This document shows positions 49,013 to 59,432 of a DNA stretch of 64,000 bases, piece after piece. The stretch spans positions 124,001 to 188,000 of the forward strand of contig CAJXQI010000001.1 in assembly GCA_913058395.1 (NCBI GenBank). The letters are read 5' to 3'. The stretch's first letter is position 1. Each line of letters begins with the position of its first letter. The position numbers and the translations under genes were made by a program. This stretch comes from an uncultured Colwellia sp. GTDB lineage: Bacteria > Pseudomonadota > Gammaproteobacteria > Enterobacterales > Alteromonadaceae. A model generated the notes under the pieces. It was not told the DNA's origin and did no database searches. It saw only the letters and a list, made by a program, of their open reading frames with translations.

Positions 49013-51955
49013 TTACTCAAAATACTCTTTTTTAACATTAACTAATTCAATCACCTCTGGCTCAGGAATCTTTTCCTTAGGAAAAGCAGTACGAACTTTT
49101 TCGGTTAAGCCTTTGGCAAACACTTGATAGAGCACGCGTGTTTTTACCGTCAGGGGATATTGAATATTACTTGGCAATTGATAGCTTTCTTGTCGGGTTT
49201 GGCCTGACTTAATACGAGTGTCTTGGCTGAGTTTTACATAGCGCCAAAAGCGTAAACCTACTGGCTTATCGTCTTTATCAACACCAATTTTAATAAAGCG
49301 TCGAGCATCTTTTGGAATGTAGCCATTGTTCATTACGCCTGAGCTGAAAACCTCTCTACCACTAGCATCAGTCGCGATAACTTCTAACCAAACTTGGCGC
49401 CTAGCGCCGCCGGGCATATCGTGGCCTGAATTGGCATTGGTGACATTTGCGGTAAAAGTATTGCCTTGTTTTTCAACCGATAGCGTTAATGCTGTTTTTA
49501 GAATGTCGATACTCAACTTTTTATGTTCAGGGTTACGCATACCAGTGAAGTAATAATTACCCCCTGCAAAATGATGTGAGCGCATATTACTTTTTATCGG
49601 TCCGTCGTCAGTTGATTGACCAGAAACTTTGTTATCAAAATTAGTCACATCTTGGGTCATATGACAATCAATACAGGTTTTGTGTTGGCTAGGGTCGTCA
49701 GGTGAATTAAATGGTGATGCTAACCACTCGCCGAAGTTGTCATTTATTTTCGCGCCAGGACCAGTAGTGAATTCGTTATGGCAAGTCGCACAGTAAAGCG
49801 AGCTTTGGTAAAGCTCAGGCTTTGAATACGAGGCTTTATGAGCTTTCGGCGCAGCGTTAATTTGTTTTTTAGCTAACCACTGTAAAAACTGATTATTGCT
49901 GTCTTCAAAAATATAGCTAGTACGGTCTTTAATGTTGACGGTTAAATCGGTATTACCACCTGCGTCTTCCGCTTCGGTAATACGATGACAGAATACGCAA
50001 CCCGTACCACGCTCATTAACTGGCGTGCCATGCTGATAAGCAGCATTTAAGGATGCGGCATTTTTTTCCCACATATCGCCAAACTCACTTAGGGCTGAAT
50101 TATCATTGTTGATGACCATTTGTGGTGTATGACAACCTCTACACAGTACTCGAAATTCTTCCCCTTCAAGCTCTGCTGCTAAATTTTCTTGATAACGATA
50201 GTAAGGATGATCCATGTTCATGCCATGATTTGAATCAGCCCATTGGTCGTAAATGGTGCTATGACAATCTTTACATTGCGCTGAGCTTAACCACTCTTTG
50301 GGATGGGCGTATTTTTTATCGTCATCAAGTTTTAACCAAGTAGAAAGGTAAGGTAGGTTTTCTTGTGTGCGTACATAGCTATTTAACGCGCCCATCATTT
50401 TAGCGACAGCAACAGGTGGGTTTAGCATATCAATGGCGGTTAAGGTTTCTGAAGTAGCAGGATCTGCGCCCATACCGCCTTGGGTTTTTTGAATAATATC
50501 AATATAGGCGGCTACCGGATCGCCAGCGATCATTTTATAAGTATCAACATGACCTGTGATGGCATTGGAGAATTTATCTTTTGTCGCGTCTTTCATTAAT
50601 TGTTTATTAGTGAAATTAAAACCGTCGAAATGACAAGAGTTACAGCTCATCCAAAAATCACCGGCCATTGGGTGGTCTTTATTTTTTTCACTGTTGGCCT
50701 GATTGAATAGGGTTTTACCTAAACGAACTTGTGCAGGTAATGGGTCGTGGTTAACTAAATCAGCAAAGTTACCTTGCGTTAATTTAAGTTTTGCAAAAGG
50801 GCCAGCAGCGCCGGTATTAAAGTGAGCAAGGGTTAATGACATAGCATTTTGCACAAACAATTCTTGGCCATCTATCAGCAAGCCTTTTGGGTTATCGCCC
50901 GGCACGTTGCGGTATATTTGCGTGACTTTTGCGCCACCTTGAAACTTTTTACGGCGGTGGCGTTTTTTGCCTTTTCTTTTTTTAGCTTTTTTATTGGCAC
51001 TCGCTTCTCGTGATAAATCAAAGACCATTAAGTCTTCTGAGCCAGCTAATGAAATAAGTACCTTTTTGCCGTCTTCACTAAAAAGTACATCATGTGGGTT
51101 CGAAACAATGCGAACTTTATTGCCACTTTCAATTATATTAATTTGCTTAAATAGTTGCTTACGTTGCTCGGTAATTTCGTGCTCGTTATCTGGCGTTAAA
51201 TCGATAATTGAAACTGTTGGGAAAACACTTGATTGAAACTGAAAGTCATGACCAAACGACCATAACACATGCGGTAGCCAAGCTTTTGTACCATCGGGGC
51301 TAATGGCGATATTGTCGAGTAACCTTGGCTTACCTTGAGGCACTGATTTAGTTTTGTTACTTGGGGTGTCGATTAACTGAATAACACTTTTTAGTGCTGG
51401 CTGCTCGGCGTTCACATCATAAATTGATACTTGCCCTGATAAGCTGTGACTAACCAATAAGCGACCATCATCTGTTAACGCTAAACCACGAGGCGTTTGC
51501 TCGGTATTGATGGTATGGGTTATTTCACCGGTTAATGAAACGGTTAGTAGCTTATTTTCTTTGAAACTGGTTAGGTAAAATTGTTGGTTTTTATTATCGA
51601 AAATAACGCCAAAAGGACGAGCGGGCACGTTGATAGCTTTTTTTACTGACAGTGTTTTAGCGTCGAGTAAAATCGCTTTGTTGTTTTGGAAGTCGCTTGC
51701 TAGCAGTAATTGTTGTTTTTCAGCATAAGCAATTCGGCGTATGTCTCGGCCTATCGTTTGTTCGCTAATAGTGTTGCCATTATCGCGATTAATAATGCTG
51801 ATGCTACCTGCGTCAAAGTTGGCACTAAATATTTTGCTTTTATCGCTATTAAAAAGCAATGAGGCACTTTTTTCTGATGCCGATGCGCTGACACTTAATA
51901 GTTGAAGAAGTGAAATTGCTACTAGCAGTAGTGGCCACTTTAGGCGTTTAAGCAT
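49013..51955 (-). CDS. Secreted beta-propeller / six-heme c-type cytochrome
   Basis: Periplasmic protein of 980 residues. The signal peptide ends at about 27. Residues about 30-400 repeat YncE-like propeller blades (KIFSANFDAGSISIINRDNG, TPRGLALTDDGRLLVSHS), interrupted by a very basic insert at 322-337. Six CxxCH heme motifs follow: C438, C561, C605, C653, C722 and C761. The first lies in a MauG/peroxidase-like setting (RLGKTLFNQ...CNSCHFDG), the rest in a multiheme domain (cytochrome c554-like). The C-terminal about 170 residues are beta-rich. Likely an electron-transfer or oxidoreductase protein; the substrate is unknown. Confidence 0.85.
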   Translation of the reverse strand: MLKRLKWPLLLVAISLLQLLSVSASASEKSASLLFNSDKSKIFSANFDAGSISIINRDNGNTISEQTIGRDIRRIAYAEKQQLLLASDFQNNKAILLDAKTLSVKKAINVPARPFGVIFDNKNQQFYLTSFKENKLLTVSLTGEITHTINTEQTPRGLALTDDGRLLVSHSLSGQVSIYDVNAEQPALKSVIQLIDTPSNKTKSVPQGKPRLLDNIAISPDGTKAWLPHVLWSFGHDFQFQSSVFPTVSIIDLTPDNEHEITEQRKQLFKQINIIESGNKVRIVSNPHDVLFSEDGKKVLISLAGSEDLMVFDLSREASANKKAKKRKGKKRHRRKKFQGGAKVTQIYRNVPGDNPKGLLIDGQELFVQNAMSLTLAHFNTGAAGPFAKLKLTQGNFADLVNHDPLPAQVRLGKTLFNQANSEKNKDHPMAGDFWMSCNSCHFDGFNFTNKQLMKDATKDKFSNAITGHVDTYKMIAGDPVAAYIDIIQKTQGGMGADPATSETLTAIDMLNPPVAVAKMMGALNSYVRTQENLPYLSTWLKLDDDKKYAHPKEWLSSAQCKDCHSTIYDQWADSNHGMNMDHPYYRYQENLAAELEGEEFRVLCRGCHTPQMVINNDNSALSEFGDMWEKNAASLNAAYQHGTPVNERGTGCVFCHRITEAEDAGGNTDLTVNIKDRTSYIFEDSNNQFLQWLAKKQINAAPKAHKASYSKPELYQSSLYCATCHNEFTTGPGAKINDNFGEWLASPFNSPDDPSQHKTCIDCHMTQDVTNFDNKVSGQSTDDGPIKSNMRSHHFAGGNYYFTGMRNPEHKKLSIDILKTALTLSVEKQGNTFTANVTNANSGHDMPGGARRQVWLEVIATDASGREVFSSGVMNNGYIPKDARRFIKIGVDKDDKPVGLRFWRYVKLSQDTRIKSGQTRQESYQLPSNIQYPLTVKTRVLYQVFAKGLTEKVRTAFPKEKIPEPEVIELVNVKKEYFE

Positions 51956-52022
51956 TGCTGTACCGAACTTATAAAATTGAAAAATTATTCTCGATAACGA
52001 GACTTTAGTAATAGCTACTGAT

Positions 52023-52499
52023 TTACTTGCGGAAATTTAAAATACTCCAACGTAACGCATGCCTAAAAACAATCGGCGCTAATAACCATGAAGAGTAAAA
52101 ATGTAGGTCTTGTATTAGTTGGCTGATGCTATTACCCGTATTACCGTAAAAAAATAGATAAAAGCCACTTAAGGTGCAAACGACTAATAACCATTCTATT
52201 AACGTACCTGTTTGGCGAAGAAAAGCTTTTTTGCTTTTGGTGATCAGTTTACGATGCGAGCTCCAAAAAGCGCCAACAATAATGCTGAATAAGGTTACAC
52301 CGATGATCATGTGAAGAGGTAATAACCAGCGTGATAACTGCCAACTAAGCGCTATTTTATCCCACAGTAATACACCACTGACAAACATAAAATACAATAA
52401 AAACTCGGCCGACTTATGACGATAGGCGAGTTGTTTCCACCATGTTGAAATTATCAATATTGGGGAGTTAATTACTGTTGAATTATCTACGTTAATCAT
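52023..52499 (-). CDS. Small cytochrome b-like membrane protein, 158 aa
   Basis: Predicted four-helix inner-membrane protein with histidines suited to heme b ligation: H28, H63 (LLPLHMIIGVTL), H82, H132 (DLHFYSSWLL) and H147 (FRHALRW). This resembles cytochrome b561-like/b6 domains. It lies 67 bases upstream of the multiheme cytochrome gene on the same strand and would connect that cytochrome to the quinone pool. Family assignment is by pattern only. Confidence 0.7.
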   Translation of the reverse strand: MINVDNSTVINSPILIISTWWKQLAYRHKSAEFLLYFMFVSGVLLWDKIALSWQLSRWLLPLHMIIGVTLFSIIVGAFWSSHRKLITKSKKAFLRQTGTLIEWLLVVCTLSGFYLFFYGNTGNSISQLIQDLHFYSSWLLAPIVFRHALRWSILNFRK

Positions 52500-52657
52500 A
52501 TTGTTAATCTTCTATGCTTTACACCATTTGAAACGGCAAAAGCAGCAATGACATTATTGCTGCTTTATTTTCTTTTTTAGTGATTAAGCTAAGTAACTTC
52601 ACTCATTGCTTCTCTGAGCTGAGCTTAACTTAGCTTAACCTTACTAAGTTATAGCAA

Positions 52658-54673
52658 CTATTTAATGCTGACTGTATTCGCCATCACTGGCGCTGTGCCA
52701 TACTTTCCGCCTGCCGCAATAATTTGTTTTACGCCATCTTGGTCGGTATCAGCATTGTTGCTATTTTTAATCACCAACTCACCAGTATCACCAATTGGCT
52801 CTGCTAACTGCATCGCACCATTAATTACCGTACTGAACCAGCTAACATAACGTGCGGTTAATGTTGCTAATTCAAAGGCTGGATTATGTTCACCTTCTTC
52901 ATTTTGCAAATGTAAAATGGTTTCACGTAAGCCACCAGAAATAGCAGCCTCTGTGTATGGCGTATGTACTGTCGCTTTACCCGGAATTGTGGCCCAGGTA
53001 TTGAGGTTTTTATCAAACATGTGCTTTTCAACAGCAAGGTAAATACTGCGCGCAGCAGCTTTGTAACTATCATCTTTAGTGGCTAAAAATGCTGCCACTA
53101 AACCGCGAATAGCAGCAAACTGGTTCTCTAATGAGGTTGAATTATCTGCTTTAACATCTTTGCCAATATTAGCACCATCAACAACTAAACCTTTATCATT
53201 GATCAAGTGTTTAACCATAAAGTCAGCCTGTGCTTTTATCATGCTAAGAGCTTGTTTACCTGCGGTTGTTTTTAGGTTTACAGCGCTAGTTTCTGCAGCA
53301 GCATAACCAACTGGCAGGGCATCTTTAGCACGTTGATAAATTGATAAGGCAACGATGGTGTAAGCGGCGTCATAACTATTTACATAGCTACCTTGCTTTA
53401 CTTGATAATCGTTAACAAAACTGCCGTGAGTTTTATTAAAATGCAAAGCGCTCAAGTTTTTAAACACTAAGTTAGAAATGTTGTTGGCTAATGAAAAGGC
53501 ATCATCACTAACAATGTCATTATCCGGATTATTGTCGGTATTTACTTTCGGCGCGGCTGCAAATGGTGCGCCGTCAAATACCGCTAACATTGCTGGGTTT
53601 TGCCCTGTATTGGCAATACGTTGATCAGTAAATGCGTAGAATTCTGCTAATGGCCACAACATTTGCCAGGTGTCACGCAAGGTTGAACGTGCATCAGTAA
53701 CTTTTAATGACTTAATACTATTCACGCCATTGATATTGCCTTCATTAACTTGCACTTTATGTGGGAACCAAACAGCGCCATTTTTTGGTGAATAATCAAG
53801 ACCAAAGGCAGTGCCAAGTTGCTTGCCATTAAAACCAAGCTGGTTCTGCATAATAATTAATTTATCAATCGACATTTCGGTCAGCATCATGCCGTTAAAG
53901 CCATCAGCGGCAGAAACACCTAAACTGTGCACACCGTCTTGGTCCATGGTCGCTGATTCTGCTTCAACTTCTTCGTCAGTTTCGGTGACATGCATGCCGC
54001 CTAAAAAGTCTTGTGACCACATCACTTCTTTTAGGAAAATAGCGCCAATCGCGGCAGGATTAAAACTTTTATCAAAACTTTTGTCATCCCATGCCAGTGA
54101 TTTGTAATCGTGAACATAAGCAGGGGTAACCGAGATAATGGTTTTGTCTTCACCTTTTGCTGTGGTGATATCGAAAGTTTCGGCGTCACCAGCAGTGGTA
54201 TCAGGCTTTGCAACAAATTCAGGGTTACCTGAAGTGTAAGGCATGGATAATGGGTAAACATTACTTGGGATTTCGCTTTGGCTTAAACCTACTGCGCCGG
54301 CCATGATGTTGATACGCTTGCTAAGTTGTTCAATACTGCCACCACGTTTTTTATTTAATGGCCCGTTTGCTAAATGTGGCCCCATGGTTGATTGATAATT
54401 TAGCGCATACATAGCTTCTTCTGAGTATTCATAACTTTCAATACCTGCAGCAAAATCAAATGCGGTTGGTGTATTCGCTGTTGTTGCATCAAGGATATCT
54501 AAGTCTAAACCTAATGCTTCTGCTAAAGGCTCGCCAGATAATTCAAACTCGGTATAAGCTAAAAAGTTACTTGCAGGGTAATGGGTTTTATCAACAATAT
54601 TTGTTTGAGCAGCCGTTACTGCCCCTGAAAGTAATGATGCCATTATCGCGAGACTTACAAGAGATTTCTTCAC
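52658..54673 (-). CDS. Secreted protein with alpha-toroid-like C-terminus, unknown
   Basis: Unrecognised periplasmic protein of 671 residues. The signal peptide is MKKSLVSLAIMASLLSGAVTA, with TCCTTAATTTAC (weak) then a clear ATG. The middle and C-terminal parts are helical with repeated hairpins (ISNLVFKNLSALHFNKTHGSF, AADFMVKHLINDKGLVVD-like, NQFAAIRGLVAAFLATKDDSYKAAARSIYLAVEKHMF). These recall (alpha/alpha)6 toroids such as glycoside-related or DUF255-like C-terminal domains. An NADTDQDGVK segment near the end looks calcium-binding. There are no heme motifs. It leads the operon with the b-like and multiheme cytochromes. Confidence 0.65.
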   Translation of the reverse strand: MKKSLVSLAIMASLLSGAVTAAQTNIVDKTHYPASNFLAYTEFELSGEPLAEALGLDLDILDATTANTPTAFDFAAGIESYEYSEEAMYALNYQSTMGPHLANGPLNKKRGGSIEQLSKRINIMAGAVGLSQSEIPSNVYPLSMPYTSGNPEFVAKPDTTAGDAETFDITTAKGEDKTIISVTPAYVHDYKSLAWDDKSFDKSFNPAAIGAIFLKEVMWSQDFLGGMHVTETDEEVEAESATMDQDGVHSLGVSAADGFNGMMLTEMSIDKLIIMQNQLGFNGKQLGTAFGLDYSPKNGAVWFPHKVQVNEGNINGVNSIKSLKVTDARSTLRDTWQMLWPLAEFYAFTDQRIANTGQNPAMLAVFDGAPFAAAPKVNTDNNPDNDIVSDDAFSLANNISNLVFKNLSALHFNKTHGSFVNDYQVKQGSYVNSYDAAYTIVALSIYQRAKDALPVGYAAAETSAVNLKTTAGKQALSMIKAQADFMVKHLINDKGLVVDGANIGKDVKADNSTSLENQFAAIRGLVAAFLATKDDSYKAAARSIYLAVEKHMFDKNLNTWATIPGKATVHTPYTEAAISGGLRETILHLQNEEGEHNPAFELATLTARYVSWFSTVINGAMQLAEPIGDTGELVIKNSNNADTDQDGVKQIIAAGGKYGTAPVMANTVSIK

Positions 54674-54785
54674 AAGTTATCCTTAATTTACACTGGGTAA
54701 TCGAGACTAATACTAAATAATGCCGCCATGGTAGCGCATTTATTTTATCAATAAAAGAAATGAGAGTAATTCTTATTTGTATTTA

Positions 54786-54799
54786 TTAATCTAGATCAA
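54786..54799. promoter_or_regulatory. FNR-like box between secreted-protein and porin genes
   Basis: ttaat-ctag-atcaa matches the FNR/EtrA consensus TTGAT-N4-ATCAA with one mismatch in one half-site. It is about 110 bases from each divergent start (54673 and 54901), so it could serve both the cytochrome operon and the porin. Confidence 0.5.
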
Positions 54800-54900
54800 G
54801 GTTAGCTGAGTTATCATTTAAAATGGCATTTTTGCTATTGAATGATGAGAAATTGCTCTTTATATTTGCGCCACTTTTATCCTGAAAACGAATTTTAAAC

Positions 54901-56022
54901 ATGATCTTTTTTAACAAAAAACTCACCATAGTCGCTGTTGCGATAGCCAGTGTTTTTTCAAGTTCTACCTTTGCTTTTGAAAATGCTAACCAGCAGCAAG
55001 ATGCAAGTAGTGCAATATCAGCAGGTAAGTTTTCAGGTAATTTTCGATTTGGTTATATTTCAACAGAAGATAACAATGGCGATAGTGTCGAAAGTTCGGC
55101 AATTGGTGGTGAGCTAAGCTATAGCAGTGCAAGTTGGAATGGTATTAGTGCAAGGGGTAGCTTGTACACAACACAAAAGCTATTCAATGATGATAACGGT
55201 GATTTTTTTGCATCAGACGGTGATAGTTATGCCATTTTGGGGCAAGCTTATTTACAAGCCAATGTAGGCGCGACAGAAGTAAAAGTTGGCCGTTTTGGTT
55301 TTGACTCACCTCATGCTGATATGGATGATATTCGCATGGTGCCTAATACCTTTTCTGGTATTTTAATCACTAATAATGACCTTAGTGACACAACTGTATA
55401 TTTGGCGCATTTAGATAAATGGTCTGGTGTTGATTCGGATAAACCAGAAGACTTTACTGATATGAATAACAGTGATGGTGTTAATGTATTTGGCGCTGTT
55501 TACGAAGGCATTGAAAATGTTGCTTTGCAAAGCTGGTATTACAATATTAACGATTTAGCTGATTTAATTTATCTTGAAGCTATGGTTGAAGTTGAGCAAT
55601 TTTCAATTGGCGTACAATACGCTAAGCAATCAGATAATAGTGATGATAATACAGGCCCTGATGGTGATGTTTACGGCATAACAGCAAGCTATACGTTAAA
55701 TGATTTTACTTTTAGCTCAGCATACAATCATGTTTCTGGCACTATTATTAATGGCTTTGGTGGCGGGCCATTTTTTAGTAATGCAGAAGATCATACGATT
55801 GATGGTGTTATTGATCAAAAAGCACTTAGAGTTGGCATTGATTATAGCGGCATTGATAACGTAACTATTGGCCTAGCACATGTTAATTTTGATGAAGGTG
55901 AAGATGAAACTGATTTACTGATCAGCTATGACTTTGGCAACGATATGGCGTTCGACTTTACTTATCATCATATGCATGATGATGGTGACATGGTGTTAGC
56001 TATGTTTAATATTGGTTTTTAG
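54901..56022 (+). CDS. Outer-membrane porin, OprD-like
   Basis: Predicted outer-membrane barrel of 373 residues. The signal peptide ends STFAFE; the mature part is strands with acidic loops (FRFGYISTEDNNGD, VGRFGFDSPHADMDD) and ends FNIGF, the aromatic barrel signature. The sequence has the features of OprD-type specific channels. It is divergent from the cytochrome operon and has its own hairpin downstream. Substrate unknown. Confidence 0.8.
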   Translation: MIFFNKKLTIVAVAIASVFSSSTFAFENANQQQDASSAISAGKFSGNFRFGYISTEDNNGDSVESSAIGGELSYSSASWNGISARGSLYTTQKLFNDDNGDFFASDGDSYAILGQAYLQANVGATEVKVGRFGFDSPHADMDDIRMVPNTFSGILITNNDLSDTTVYLAHLDKWSGVDSDKPEDFTDMNNSDGVNVFGAVYEGIENVALQSWYYNINDLADLIYLEAMVEVEQFSIGVQYAKQSDNSDDNTGPDGDVYGITASYTLNDFTFSSAYNHVSGTIINGFGGGPFFSNAEDHTIDGVIDQKALRVGIDYSGIDNVTIGLAHVNFDEGEDETDLLISYDFGNDMAFDFTYHHMHDDGDMVLAMFNIGF

Positions 56023-56038
56023 TCGACTGGCTTTAAAA

Positions 56039-56063
56039 AGGTAGAGAGTTTGCTTCTCTACCT
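56039..56063 (-). terminator. Terminator of the c-heme sensor cyclase gene
   Basis: 9-bp stem aggtagaga / tctctacct with a 7-base loop. On the minus strand it is followed by TTTTTAAAG; it is also just past the porin stop on the + strand, so it may serve both convergent genes. Confidence 0.75.
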
Positions 56064-56121
56064 AATCCTATTTTGTATTGGTCAGTTAATTCTATTACCC
56101 ACTCCGCTGATACTAAGCGTA

Positions 56122-57393
56122 TTAAACATCTTCATCATTAATGTATGCCGCTTGATTTCTACCATTCAACTTTGCTTGATAAAGCGCCTGATCTGCTAAC
56201 GACATCATTTTTCTCATTGTGGTATTACTCTGACTGAATTTTATTGTATAGCCTATGCTGCAGGTGATATGAATATTGTTATTGTCAGGTATTTCAATGC
56301 TACTGACATTTTTTAATATTCGGTCTATGACCCTCTGCAATTCTTCTTTTGATATGTCTTGCAAAATAATGGCGAACTCTTCACCGCCAATACGAGCATG
56401 AAAGTCTTGGCTATTTCTCAGTGCAAGGTTTACTGCATTCACTACGGCTTTTAAACATTCATCACCAATATCGTGCCCATAGTTGTCATTAACGTTTTTA
56501 AAATAATCTAAATCGTAGACCAGTAATGCAATTGGCCAAATTACTTTAGACTGATTGCTAAATAATGCTTGGCCAAATTCCTCGAAATGGCGACGGTTAG
56601 CAATTGAAGTGAGCGAGTCGGTGCGTGCAAGGTGACTTAAGGCTGCTGTTCTTTTTTCAACTTGTTGCTCTAGCTCGCTTGATAAATTGAGCGCACGCTT
56701 TAAAGTAACGAACATACACAATAACCCAATCACAGAAAATGCGATAAAAATAACATAGGCATATTGCACTGTTTTTGTCAGCTCAGCATCGTCAGTACTT
56801 AATGGAATAGTAATATCAACAGCACCGCGCATGTCGCCAACCTGCCAATCTTTTTTCGGACTATCTGGGTGCATATTATGGCAATCAACACAGCTTTGTT
56901 CCATGAAAATGGGCTCTGCATGTCGAAGCACGTTAGTTTCGCCCAGCATTTCAATACGTTCAAATACAAGGGTCGTTGCGTTAAGTTTTAATAAAGCTGT
57001 TTTTTGAAAGTCATCTTTTGGGCCACCACTATTTTTTCTGCTTGCAAAAGGGTAATTACTAAAAGTATGCAAGATCAACCCTTTTTCTGGTGCTGATATC
57101 GCTTGCCCAAGTTCAATTGCAAATGTTGCGGGGTTGGGCACCGCGTAAGGTTTATCGTGATATTGCGCCTGTACTGAAATATCAGGGTGAGCACGCAAAG
57201 CTGCAACAGCATTTTTACTATAAGAATCTCGAGCTTGGTTAATGGTAGAAGCCAACACCGTGGCAGTACGAGCAGCTAGCGCGGTTGAAGCAGAATATTG
57301 TAATTTTTTAATGGCAATAAGCGAAATTACAGCCATTAGCATAAAAAGTAAGGTGAAAGCCGTGATAGCTTTTGTGTGAGAAAATTTCATCAT
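56122..57393 (-). CDS. Tll0287-like (DUF3365) c-heme sensor diguanylate cyclase
   Basis: Membrane cyclase of 423 residues. TM1 about 10-30, a periplasmic Tll0287/DUF3365 domain about 35-205 with one heme motif CVDCH (C168, C171, H172) in CHNMHPDSPKKDWQVGDMRGAVDITIP, TM2 about 211-231, coiled coil, then GGDEF about 250-415. The active site is GGEEF (336-340), still compatible with cyclase activity. The I-site is not canonical. The heme should sense redox state or a gas. It lies beside the multiheme cytochrome locus and porin, so it may report on that respiration. Confidence 0.9.
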   Translation of the reverse strand: MMKFSHTKAITAFTLLFMLMAVISLIAIKKLQYSASTALAARTATVLASTINQARDSYSKNAVAALRAHPDISVQAQYHDKPYAVPNPATFAIELGQAISAPEKGLILHTFSNYPFASRKNSGGPKDDFQKTALLKLNATTLVFERIEMLGETNVLRHAEPIFMEQSCVDCHNMHPDSPKKDWQVGDMRGAVDITIPLSTDDAELTKTVQYAYVIFIAFSVIGLLCMFVTLKRALNLSSELEQQVEKRTAALSHLARTDSLTSIANRRHFEEFGQALFSNQSKVIWPIALLVYDLDYFKNVNDNYGHDIGDECLKAVVNAVNLALRNSQDFHARIGGEEFAIILQDISKEELQRVIDRILKNVSSIEIPDNNNIHITCSIGYTIKFSQSNTTMRKMMSLADQALYQAKLNGRNQAAYINDEDV

Positions 57394-57551
57394 ATATAGA
57401 TTATGAGTTACTTCAATAAAAGTTAGCTATATCAATAGTAAAGCACAAATTATAAGCGCTTCCTAGGCACAAATGGCTAGTCGTGATTTTATTGATATTG
57501 TTACGTACTTTTATTATTTGCCAACTTAGAAAACAATACGTTCAGCGGAGC

Positions 57552-59432
57552 CTAAACAATAAACTTTTCTAATAGCACTTGCTGTTGATTCACTTCATCA
57601 ACAAGGGTTTCATTCGTGCCTACTTGTTCTTGAGAAAAATCGCCAACTTGCAAGCTAATATCATTAATATGAGTGGTATTTTTATTGATTTCTTCGATCA
57701 CAACACTTTGTTCTTCAATTGCTGCAGCAATTTGAATATTTCTATCCATAATATCTTTTACCGCTCCAGAAATATCTTCTAATGCTTGGTTGGCTATTTG
57801 TGTGTTTTCAACGCAAGAATCTGCTTTTTCACGACTCTCATTCATTGATACTTGCACTAAGCCTGATGACTGTTGAATTTGTTCAATCATAGTTTTAATT
57901 TCAGTCGTGGATTCTTGTGTGCGAGAAGCCAAAGTACGTACTTCATCTGCTACTACGGCAAACCCACGCCCTTGTTCACCAGCTCTTGCCGCCTCAATAG
58001 CGGCATTTAATGCCAGTAAATTGGTTTGTTCAGCAACACCATTAATGACGGAAAGTACCTGTTCAATATTATTACTATATTCTGCGAGTTGATTACTGAG
58101 TTCTTGTGAAGATGAGATGGTTTCTGAAAGCTCCATAACATCATGACTAGTTCTACTAAATAAATTTTTACCTTCATCAGCTCTTTCATTAACTGATGAT
58201 ATTGATGTCGCTGCATCTTGTGCGCTTGATGCAATATCCATCGAGGTTTGGCTCATTTCATTCATTGCGGTTGCTAAGCCTTCAACCAATACACCTTGTT
58301 CTTGTAATTGAACACTAGATTCACTGGCCAAATTTTTTGCACTGTCGCTGTTGTTAACCACGATATCTGCTTTGTGTTTTATGTCTTTTACTAGCTGCTG
58401 CATACTCACCAAAAAGCGATTGAAATTTGATGCGACAGCGCCACATTCGTCTTCACTTGTTATCGTTAAACGTTGTGTTAAATCACCACCACCTGATGCA
58501 ATATCAGCAATAGCCGACTCTAAAACACTTAATGGCATAAGCAGCTTTTTAGCTAATTGTCGTAATGATAAAACACAAATGGCAATACCGATAATAGCGA
58601 ACAAAATGGTTTGATTCGTCAGGTGAGTTAACGATTGATAGACTTTATCTTTTTCTAATAAAACGCCTAAATACCAGCTCATGCCAAATTCTTTTTTCAA
58701 AGGGTAAAAGTAAATGAGCTTATTGACGCCTTCATGCTCAATTTCAATAATTTGCTGGTCACTCTTTGGGAATGCGTTATATAAGTCCTCGGTACTTTTG
58801 CCATTAAGCTGTGCATTTGGGTGGGTGATGATATTGCCATTCTCGTTAGCAATAAACGCTAAGCCAGTGTTATTAAAGTTGATTGTGTTAACACTGGTTG
58901 CAATGCTATTTAGGCTTAAATCGCCGCCGAAAACACCTTGAAAGTTACCATTACTATAAATAGGGGTTACCACTGATAGTAGTAACTCATTTGTTGCTGC
59001 ATCAATATAAGGCTGGGTAAATACTACATCTTTATTTTCTTGTCCTAATTTATACCAAGGTCGTTCTCTAAAATCGACATTAGCAGGGTTTTCTCGTGTT
59101 GGATCATTCGAACGCAACTGTTTCTCATTTGCCAAAGTGCCAAACATTAGAGAGAAGTCTTTATTTAATGATGGTAGGGCTAAAGTATTTTGAAAGTTTT
59201 CTACCGAGTAATTACTTTCAACAATGTTTCTAATGATTTGGATTTGAGAGGTTTTGCTGTTTAGCCAATTACTGATGCTTTGTGCCAATAGTGATGAATT
59301 ATCTTCTACGTAAGCTTGAGTTTTTTCTTGAAGCGAACTGCTGATTAATATGTAACTGGAAAGGGAAAGTAAAGAGACAATAACAAATACAACAATACCG
59401 GATGCAACTGAAAATTTTGTTTTTATGTTCAT
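57552..59432 (-). CDS. Methyl-accepting chemotaxis protein with dCache sensor
   Basis: Chemoreceptor of 626 residues. TM1 about 8-30, a double-Cache periplasmic domain about 35-270 ([43 protein letters not shown]), TM2 about 275-295, HAMP, then a signalling hairpin whose tip is [42 protein letters not shown]. No CheBR pentapeptide tether is seen at the C-terminus. Ligand unknown, commonly amino or organic acids for this domain. It is divergent from a porin. Confidence 0.93.

Follow-up and report, generated by a model that had tools for sequence, protein, structure and literature searches.

In a 64,000-nucleotide stretch of DNA from an uncultured Colwellia sp. (contig CAJXQI010000001.1, positions 124,001 to 188,000; here called the window), three minus-strand genes, encoding a secreted toroid protein of 671 amino acids (aa) (Tor671), a membrane protein of 158 aa (Mem158) and a cytochrome of 980 aa (Cyt980), form a real, conserved and unnamed redox unit. 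We give about an even chance to this trio being the core of a quinone-wired periplasmic iron-redox unit, with the oxidation of Fe2+ to Fe3+ as its likeliest reaction; iron is probably its substrate. The first-pass annotation of positions 49,013 to 59,432 listed six open reading frames (ORFs), all of which lie where it had placed them, and grouped them as one uncharacterised, quinone-linked respiratory or oxidative system. A redox module of three genes, quinone-linked by its make-up, is what stands of that proposal, while the six-gene extent does not. No paper treating this gene set was found in the open-access literature by title and abstract.

A Tor671 scan of 84,980 species genomes gave 153 relatives, and the best 80 of the 153 were taken as loci, 21 from Aeromonas and 59 from other bacteria. 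L-numbers denote the DNA stretches fetched around relatives of Tor671 or related proteins. Aeromonas was left out of the counts given out of 49 or 59, the 49 being the non-Aeromonas loci whose sequence extends about 8.5 kb or more past Tor671. The three genes were found together on one strand in 46/49 of these, and trio loci span Gammaproteobacteria, Alphaproteobacteria and Campylobacterota. In one of the 46 (L039), Tor671 is 8.5 kb away from Mem158 and Cyt980, with six opposite-strand genes between them. The three loci without a co-located trio were L035, L040 and L091. Across all loci, 28 lacked Cyt980, and in 11 out of 11 tested genomes with a lone Tor671 it was found elsewhere in the genome; these were the three just named and eight others, seven of them Aeromonas. 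Two of the 11 Cyt980 genes, both from Aeromonas, have one in-frame TGA each, one is split across two contigs, that of L032 begins at a contig edge, and that of L035 (from the same genome as L027) is a member of a second Tor671 cluster.

The same association was seen in 197 Vibrionaceae genomes, which as relatives are not statistically independent of each other, so that Fisher p values for it come out too small. Tor671 is present in 16 of them, and a whole-length Cyt980 match is present in the same 16, always on the same contig (Tor671 is partial in G695 and Cyt980 lies in two ORFs in G634); eight other genomes match Cyt980 in its pentaheme module alone. Co-location elsewhere, whose absence the first-pass annotation had said would refute its proposal, was found. 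Tor671 itself is uncommon. Among 397 sampled Pseudomonadota genomes, only the window's own carries it, apart from two weak matches, and a close relative was detected in 2 out of 147 Colwelliaceae, the window's genome and Cognaticolwellia mytili, with distant ones in three more. C. mytili is counted once as a single sister genome, as its L010 sequence lies letter-for-letter inside L014. Compared with L014, the ratio of nonsynonymous to synonymous substitution (dN/dS) is 0.05-0.07 for the three trio genes, with dS of 1.2-2.5 being near saturation. This low ratio argues that the ORFs are more than chance, and purifying selection on the trio remains strong. Two sequences were left out of alignments: the L015 Cyt980, split over two frames, from alignment A2, and L090, because of a stop, from alignment A1. 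The 21 Aeromonas loci (L041 to L075) carry Tor671 without Cyt980 in the fetched flank; Tor671 stands beside glgC in most of them, and also occurs on a plasmid (L112).

Tor671 (52,658..54,673, minus strand) is a secreted alpha/alpha-toroid protein of an unnamed family. It had been described as secreted and free of heme motifs, and both were confirmed, with a signal peptide judged by eye and zero CxxCH; no Pfam family was matched at E<=1. The label "toroid-like" is supported by the AlphaFold model (pLDDT 93.9, pTM 0.94), which was matched by Foldseek to alpha/alpha-toroid enzymes with a best E of 3e-6, identity of 8-15% and TMt <=0.54 among the 50 matches listed. A known unrelated enzyme, named in the first-pass annotation as the finding that would overturn its proposal, was searched for, and only this distant fold match came up. 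Known family names were rejected: there was none from Pfam, a single sub-threshold NCBIfam match (0.1) and PDB sequence matches with E >=0.2. For the AGE/toroid sugar epimerases, there is a likeness of fold alone, without a family match. Cellobiose 2-epimerase, GH76 and YihS have this fold in common with Tor671, which differs from them in its 8-15% identity, its lack of a Pfam family and its company of heme proteins. Residues retained in distant relatives too include H78, H206, H389, E20, E26 and E603, among others, and two tryptophans, W197 and W318, are invariant (numbers follow alignment A7; add 22 for the full-length protein). A metal site in Tor671 may be supposed.

For Cyt980 (49,013..51,955, minus strand), a signal peptide is followed by a YVTN-type beta-propeller (about residues 30-400), a MauG-like domain holding a single c heme (CxxCH 438-442), a pentaheme module of the c552/PHC kind (CxxCH starts at 561, 605, 653, 722 and 761) and a C-terminal beta domain. 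Its description as a propeller plus six-CxxCH cytochrome was upheld, as none of the six motifs varies among the 36 rows of an alignment and exactly six are found in 46/46 relatives in the fetched loci with an ORF >900 aa. The model has a pLDDT of 81.8, lower (middling) in the heme modules. The propeller matched 1l0q and hydrazine synthase beta, and the pentaheme module matched Thermochromatium tepidum c552 (5ze8; Foldseek E 3.7e-13, TMt 0.68, identity 19%). With this fold match and its five C-terminal CxxCH, Cyt980 belongs to the pentaheme c552/PHC family. Against the ExtKL equivalog NF040886 it scored 55.5 bits, under the cut-off of 250. Passages of PMC11976967 propose that cable-bacteria pentaheme cytochromes group with ExtKL and Gsu2801, and point out their structural homology to c552. 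The five-heme module is common to all of these (T. tepidum c552, ExtKL, Gsu2801 and the cable-bacteria PHC) and to the C-terminus of Cyt980, whereas in Cyt980 it shares one chain with a propeller and a heme domain of the MauG-like type, and is tied to a membrane b subunit. The order of a propeller and then a MauG-like N-terminal heme domain is also that of MauG/MbnH and propeller + CCP_MauG proteins. However, the proteobacterial Cyt980 is without the second MauG heme, and there is no sign of protein modification; for PF03150 (MauG/di-heme peroxidase), the window's Cyt980 scored 13.5 bits against a cut-off of 25.6, with the first heme only retained, and the L080 protein reached 1.8e-4, also below the cut-off.

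Stand-alone pentaheme loci of Vibrionaceae were considered as a guide to the substrate and gave no clue. Two of these, L126:3689-9457 and L128:3967-9214, encode pentaheme proteins (660-672 aa) whose N-termini are hydrophobic, adjoining FG-GAP/HEAT or FG-GAP/UnbV_ASPIC propeller genes, which makes them another propeller plus pentaheme module.

Mem158 (52,023..52,499, minus strand) is a four-helix membrane protein with four conserved histidines, and is probably the quinone-side subunit, of the di-heme b kind. Its four hydrophobic stretches (by eye) and the presence of H63, H82, H133 and H147, each kept in >=90% of 28 aligned rows, agree with the small His-rich membrane protein that had been described. 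There are 18 residues between H63 and H82, and 13 between H133 and H147, a spacing which we take to be that of transmembrane di-heme b proteins. With its helices judged by eye, Mem158 has the two His pairs in helices of b561-like di-heme b proteins; its match to Pfam b561 (0.022) is under the cut-off. In 15 loci, alphaproteobacterial or from Campylobacterota, Mem158 forms the N-terminal part of a fusion with Cyt980, in ORFs of 1120-1290 aa, 13 of which were viewed in alignment. A sixteenth Cyt980 ORF >1100 aa (L073), whose membrane part aligns badly, is excluded from this count. From its sequence, Mem158 probably carries two b hemes, and the trio is read as quinone-linked because of the His pattern and the 15 fusions.

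The partnership with heme proteins is an old one. The toroid protein accompanies heme electron carriers in three different forms, of which the trio is one. The second is on Anoxybacillus plasmid pDSM15939_1 (L111:14875-18973), where the gene after that of a Tor671 relative (43%) encodes a propeller protein that has two CxxCH. This partner aligns to residues 33-569 of Cyt980 (31%, 6e-75) and matches PF03150 above the cut-off (30.9 bits, 5e-7). It is a complete MauG-type form, lacking the pentaheme chain. The third form was detected in two Colwelliaceae genomes, as 907-908-aa relatives of Tor671 (23-25% identity) that end in a class I cytochrome c (PF00034, 1.8e-8 and 4.7e-9); a Cyt980-type protein was not found in one of these genomes, and the other gave a weak propeller match alone. 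The three forms support, short of proof, the idea that Tor671 exchanges electrons. In the plasmid, opposite-strand genes annotated as a zinc ABC substrate-binding protein and a GTP-binding protein adjoin the pair. The Colwelliaceae fusions (L113:7451-11690 and L114:8112-12467) adjoin a barrel-like outer-membrane protein (by eye, no Pfam match), and each fusion with this neighbour is a second, unnamed toroid redox pair.

The iron connection comes from neighbouring genes. An FTR1 permease gene (PF03239; 145 bits in L017) is in the cluster in 30/49 loci, and the number of RExxE motifs is exactly two in 28 of the 30 ORFs called as FTR1. The L017 permease scored 204.7 bits for the EfeU equivalog NF041756, under the curated cut-off of 255. 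In all 16 Tor-bearing Vibrionaceae, FTR1 is inside the trio operon, 626-675 bp from Tor671, compared with 25/181 of the other Vibrionaceae having it anywhere in the genome. FTR1 also adjoins Cyt980 in Aeromonas L041, whose Tor671 is elsewhere. In the 30 loci with FTR1, the next gene encodes a PRK07208-type flavoprotein (F3; 653.7 bits, cut-off 380), and a periplasmic protein of 200 aa (F5) and a membrane protein of GT-C-like type (F2) come after it in this order wherever they were found; F3, F5 and F2 are also present without FTR1 in some further loci. The F2 profile weakly matched GPI mannosyltransferase (GT-C) in the PDB (E 0.002), and that of F5 matched nothing credible there. This block is in fixed order in L017:12681-17013 and its relatives, with an AYSYAAAGKEP motif in F5. 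Other iron transporters occur in the flanks: FeoB in 4/59 loci and FecCD, upstream of Tor671, in 3/59 (Pseudovibrio), all with FTR1 too, and FbpA genes in 3/59, all without FTR1, among them an L015 protein that matched FbpA 1q35 at 9e-119. No cupredoxin, P19, multicopper oxidase, DyP or M75 domains were detected by Pfam in the trio or in F2, F3, F5 and F6 of L017.

Passages of PMC11966278 and PMC9174327 state that Ftr1p transports only Fe3+ that an oxidase produces in situ, and give FTR1 permeases of described systems a copper oxidase or heme peroxidase as partner, with cupredoxin or heme-peroxidase partners for FtrABCD and EfeUOB. FTR1 with two RExxE motifs, periplasmic redox partners and Fur-like sites are features of Fet3-Ftr1, FtrABCD, EfeUOB and P19-cFtr1 as well as of the trio clusters. 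In contrast to these, the trio uses a toroid, a propeller/six-heme cytochrome and a b-type membrane subunit, and the window's genome is without FTR1. The unit is most probably for iron, and is read as a variant of the FTR1-type, oxidation-linked iron systems that differs from the known ones.

Fur-like and FNR-like sites are enriched upstream of Tor671, where the 200 bp before the gene were scanned and p was calculated against shuffles of that sequence. A 19-letter Fur consensus reached p<=0.05 in 18/28 non-alphaproteobacterial genus representatives (1.4 expected) and in 3/8 alphaproteobacterial ones, and a repeat scan gave 17/28, compared with 0-3/28 for 40 permuted palindromes of equal composition. 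A 7-1-7 form, TGAKAATNATTMTCA, which was chosen after inspecting the window's upstream bases and is therefore a second look, was found in 23/30 sequences including the window (p 0.025). Of 15 permuted controls for this form, one that is nearly identical to the real pattern gave 18/30, the next gave 5, and the rest 1 or 0. In the window, the Fur-box-like site (54,761..54,775, no strand assigned) has 12/14 letters of TGAKAATNATTMTCA; three sites as good occur across the whole window against 1.8 expected, and the site alone is weak. Within the window's clade, the Fur-like site was at p<=0.05 in the window, L015 and L074, and at p 0.11 in L016 and 0.16 in L014.

An FNR-box-like site (54,786..54,799, no strand assigned), with 9/10 letters of TTGATNNNNATCAA, lies 10 bp upstream of the Fur-like site. 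The FNR consensus was found in 10/30 sequences including the window (p 0.05), compared with 0-1/30 for 15 permuted forms, some of which repeat one another. In the window, L015, L016, L017 and L036, the best Fur-like and FNR-like sites start 23-24 bp apart, and from this common spacing it can be argued that the window's pair of sites was inherited. In L016 neither site reaches p 0.05, and in L036 the Fur match does not exceed chance; the spacing is a different one in six further FNR-positive sequences. Over the whole window there are 15 FNR-like sites with <=1 mismatch, against 5.6 expected from shuffling. The 44-64 kb stretch with listed ORFs has seven such sites, six of them within ORFs.

The window itself belongs to a clade without the permease. 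In a tree of 48 Tor671 sequences, it falls in an FTR1-less clade (98/97) whose other members are L014, L015, L016 and L074. This clade neighbours an FTR1-bearing Vibrionaceae/Ferrimonas clade (97/89), and the FTR1 label requires about 10-11 gains or losses over the tree. For this label, L042 and L052 were taken as FTR1-bearing by L041 alone, L065 was left unlabelled though FTR1 is there, and short contigs were scored as lacking FTR1. None of FTR1, F3, F5 and F2 is in the loci of the window's clade, and FTR1 is absent from all five of its genomes, that of L015 included.

The FTR1 neighbourhood and the control sites together point to iron as the substrate, which the first-pass annotation had left unnamed. 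As FTR1 permeases of characterised systems import Fe3+ that is formed locally from Fe2+, oxidation would be the likeliest direction, and the iron neighbourhood and control sites fit uptake better than a growth-supporting respiratory chain. Fe2+ could enter the periplasm through any porin, and iron or an iron complex could be bound in the cavity of the Tor671 toroid. The hemes of Cyt980 would oxidise the bound Fe2+, and the electron would pass from Cyt980 to the two b hemes of Mem158 and on to quinone, which would replace oxygen as the acceptor. In most lineages the Fe3+ would be taken up by FTR1, and in the window's clade it may go to another importer such as FbpABC. The trio would be made under iron shortage (Fur) and low oxygen (FNR). 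Quinone as the acceptor is in line with FNR-like control, and with Sulfurimonas and Arcobacter being among the hosts. Tentatively, and with the balance tilting somewhat the other way, we suggest that an oxygen-independent, quinone-linked ferroxidase drives FTR1 uptake when cells are anaerobic and starved of iron, the window holding a stripped-down form that uses another Fe3+ importer. If true, a quinone-linked partner could explain how FTR1 permeases function without oxygen, iron nutrition would be joined to the respiratory chain, and a function would be provided for an unnamed toroid family of Gammaproteobacteria, Alphaproteobacteria, Campylobacterota and a Bacillota plasmid. Iron binding by Tor671, the electron route and the electron direction are all putative here, with the direction being the weakest step.

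Several observations weigh against iron oxidation by the trio. A PF03239 search of the window's whole genome found no FTR1, and FTR1 was missing from the whole genome in 10/12 tested, the window's included, nine having been picked because their locus lacked FTR1 and several being metagenome-assembled genomes. FbpA is present in 7/7 FTR1-less genomes, at 64% in the window's, which is unspecific as there is no FTR1-bearing comparison. In 16/49 loci, none of FTR1, FeoB, FbpA and FecCD was found. The regulatory evidence is modest in the window, where the first 19-letter Fur consensus gave no site (p 0.94), the Fur-like site was seen with a different consensus from that of the first scan, and the FNR search followed inspection of the window's bases; in the sister genome (L014) there is neither a Fur-like nor an FNR-like site upstream of Tor671. 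The fold of Tor671 is that of sugar enzymes, its invariant W, R, D, E and H would suit a sugar pocket too, two companion genes resemble glycan genes, and the FeoB neighbours would fit a ferric reductase.

A periplasmic ferric reductase is the main rival to the ferroxidase reading. Quinol would then donate electrons, via Mem158 and Cyt980, to Fe3+ or a ferric chelate held by Tor671, giving Fe2+ for FeoB or freeing iron from chelators. This could account for FeoB in the flanks of four loci, FeoA in L080 and the FecCD-type transporter genes that lie upstream in Pseudovibrio. The resemblance of the pentaheme module to c552, termed low-potential in the title of its paper, would also suit a reductant. 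However, the iron gene inside the cluster is FTR1 (30/49) and not FeoB, all four FeoB loci have FTR1 too, and FTR1-type permeases are paired with oxidases in the passages of PMC11966278 and PMC9174327 cited above. We consider a reductase unlikely.

Closer to the respiratory view of the first-pass annotation, the trio could have become, in the FTR1-less clade, a branch of anaerobic respiration whose substrate is not a nutrient. The clade's loci without FTR1, F3, F5 and F2, the absence of FTR1 from its five genomes, the FNR-like site and the continuing strong purifying selection are in keeping with this, but the Fur-like sites in three of its five members and FbpA beside the trio in L015 are not, and such a change of role seems distinctly improbable.

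Another, quite remote explanation is that Cyt980 is a MauG/MbnH-like maturase, which would oxidise residues of Tor671 to make a cofactor or metal site, with the quinone link only resetting the hemes. The MauG-like heme domain (with the PF03150 matches of L080 and Anoxybacillus), the tight Tor671/Cyt980 pairing and the invariant W197 and W318 speak for this. On the other hand, the proteobacterial form has the first MauG heme only and a pentaheme chain in place of the second, and the cytochrome on the two distant Tor671 relatives is of the plain class I kind, in genomes where Cyt980 was either not found or reduced to a weak propeller match.

The chance is just as slim that the trio is a periplasmic sugar or sugar-acid oxidoreductase, in which Tor671 would bind a glycan that the flavin adenine dinucleotide (FAD) and GT-C companions help to make or trim while Cyt980 and Mem158 pass electrons to quinone: the toroid fold is common to epimerases and glycosidases, the companions score as a flavoprotein (653.7 bits) and as GT-C-like (E 0.002), Tor671 is beside glgC in Aeromonas and beside an alpha-amylase-like gene in L035 (by eye), and the Tor-cytochrome fusions weakly match a C5-epimerase (5e-4 to 7e-4), but Tor671 is without a known redox cofactor domain, the companions are missing from the loci of the window's clade, and Fur-like sites and iron transporters are left unexplained.

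The remaining three genes are present as had been described from the ORF list, and Pfam agrees: a divergent OprD/Opr-family porin (54,901..56,022, plus strand; PF03573, 1e-20), a Tll0287-like GGDEF protein with one CxxCH (56,122..57,393, minus strand; PF11845, 1.5e-17) and a dCache chemoreceptor (MCP626; 57,552..59,432, minus strand). The proposal that the porin, the cyclic di-GMP cyclase and the chemoreceptor are parts of the system was rejected, on the evidence of one sister genome and the wider loci. In C. mytili, the porin, intact in the window, is down to its last 77 residues (L014:9554-9784), and MCP626 has no significant match in the L014 locus. The Tll0287-GGDEF gene is matched over its whole length in the sister genome only (80-81%), five other loci matching the protein in the GGDEF domain alone. 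They are therefore regarded as neighbours and not as conserved parts. Three Sulfurimonas loci have a same-family porin (27-30% identity), adjacent to Tor671 in two of them and near the trio in the other, which makes an outer-membrane partner for the trio possible, but dispensable.

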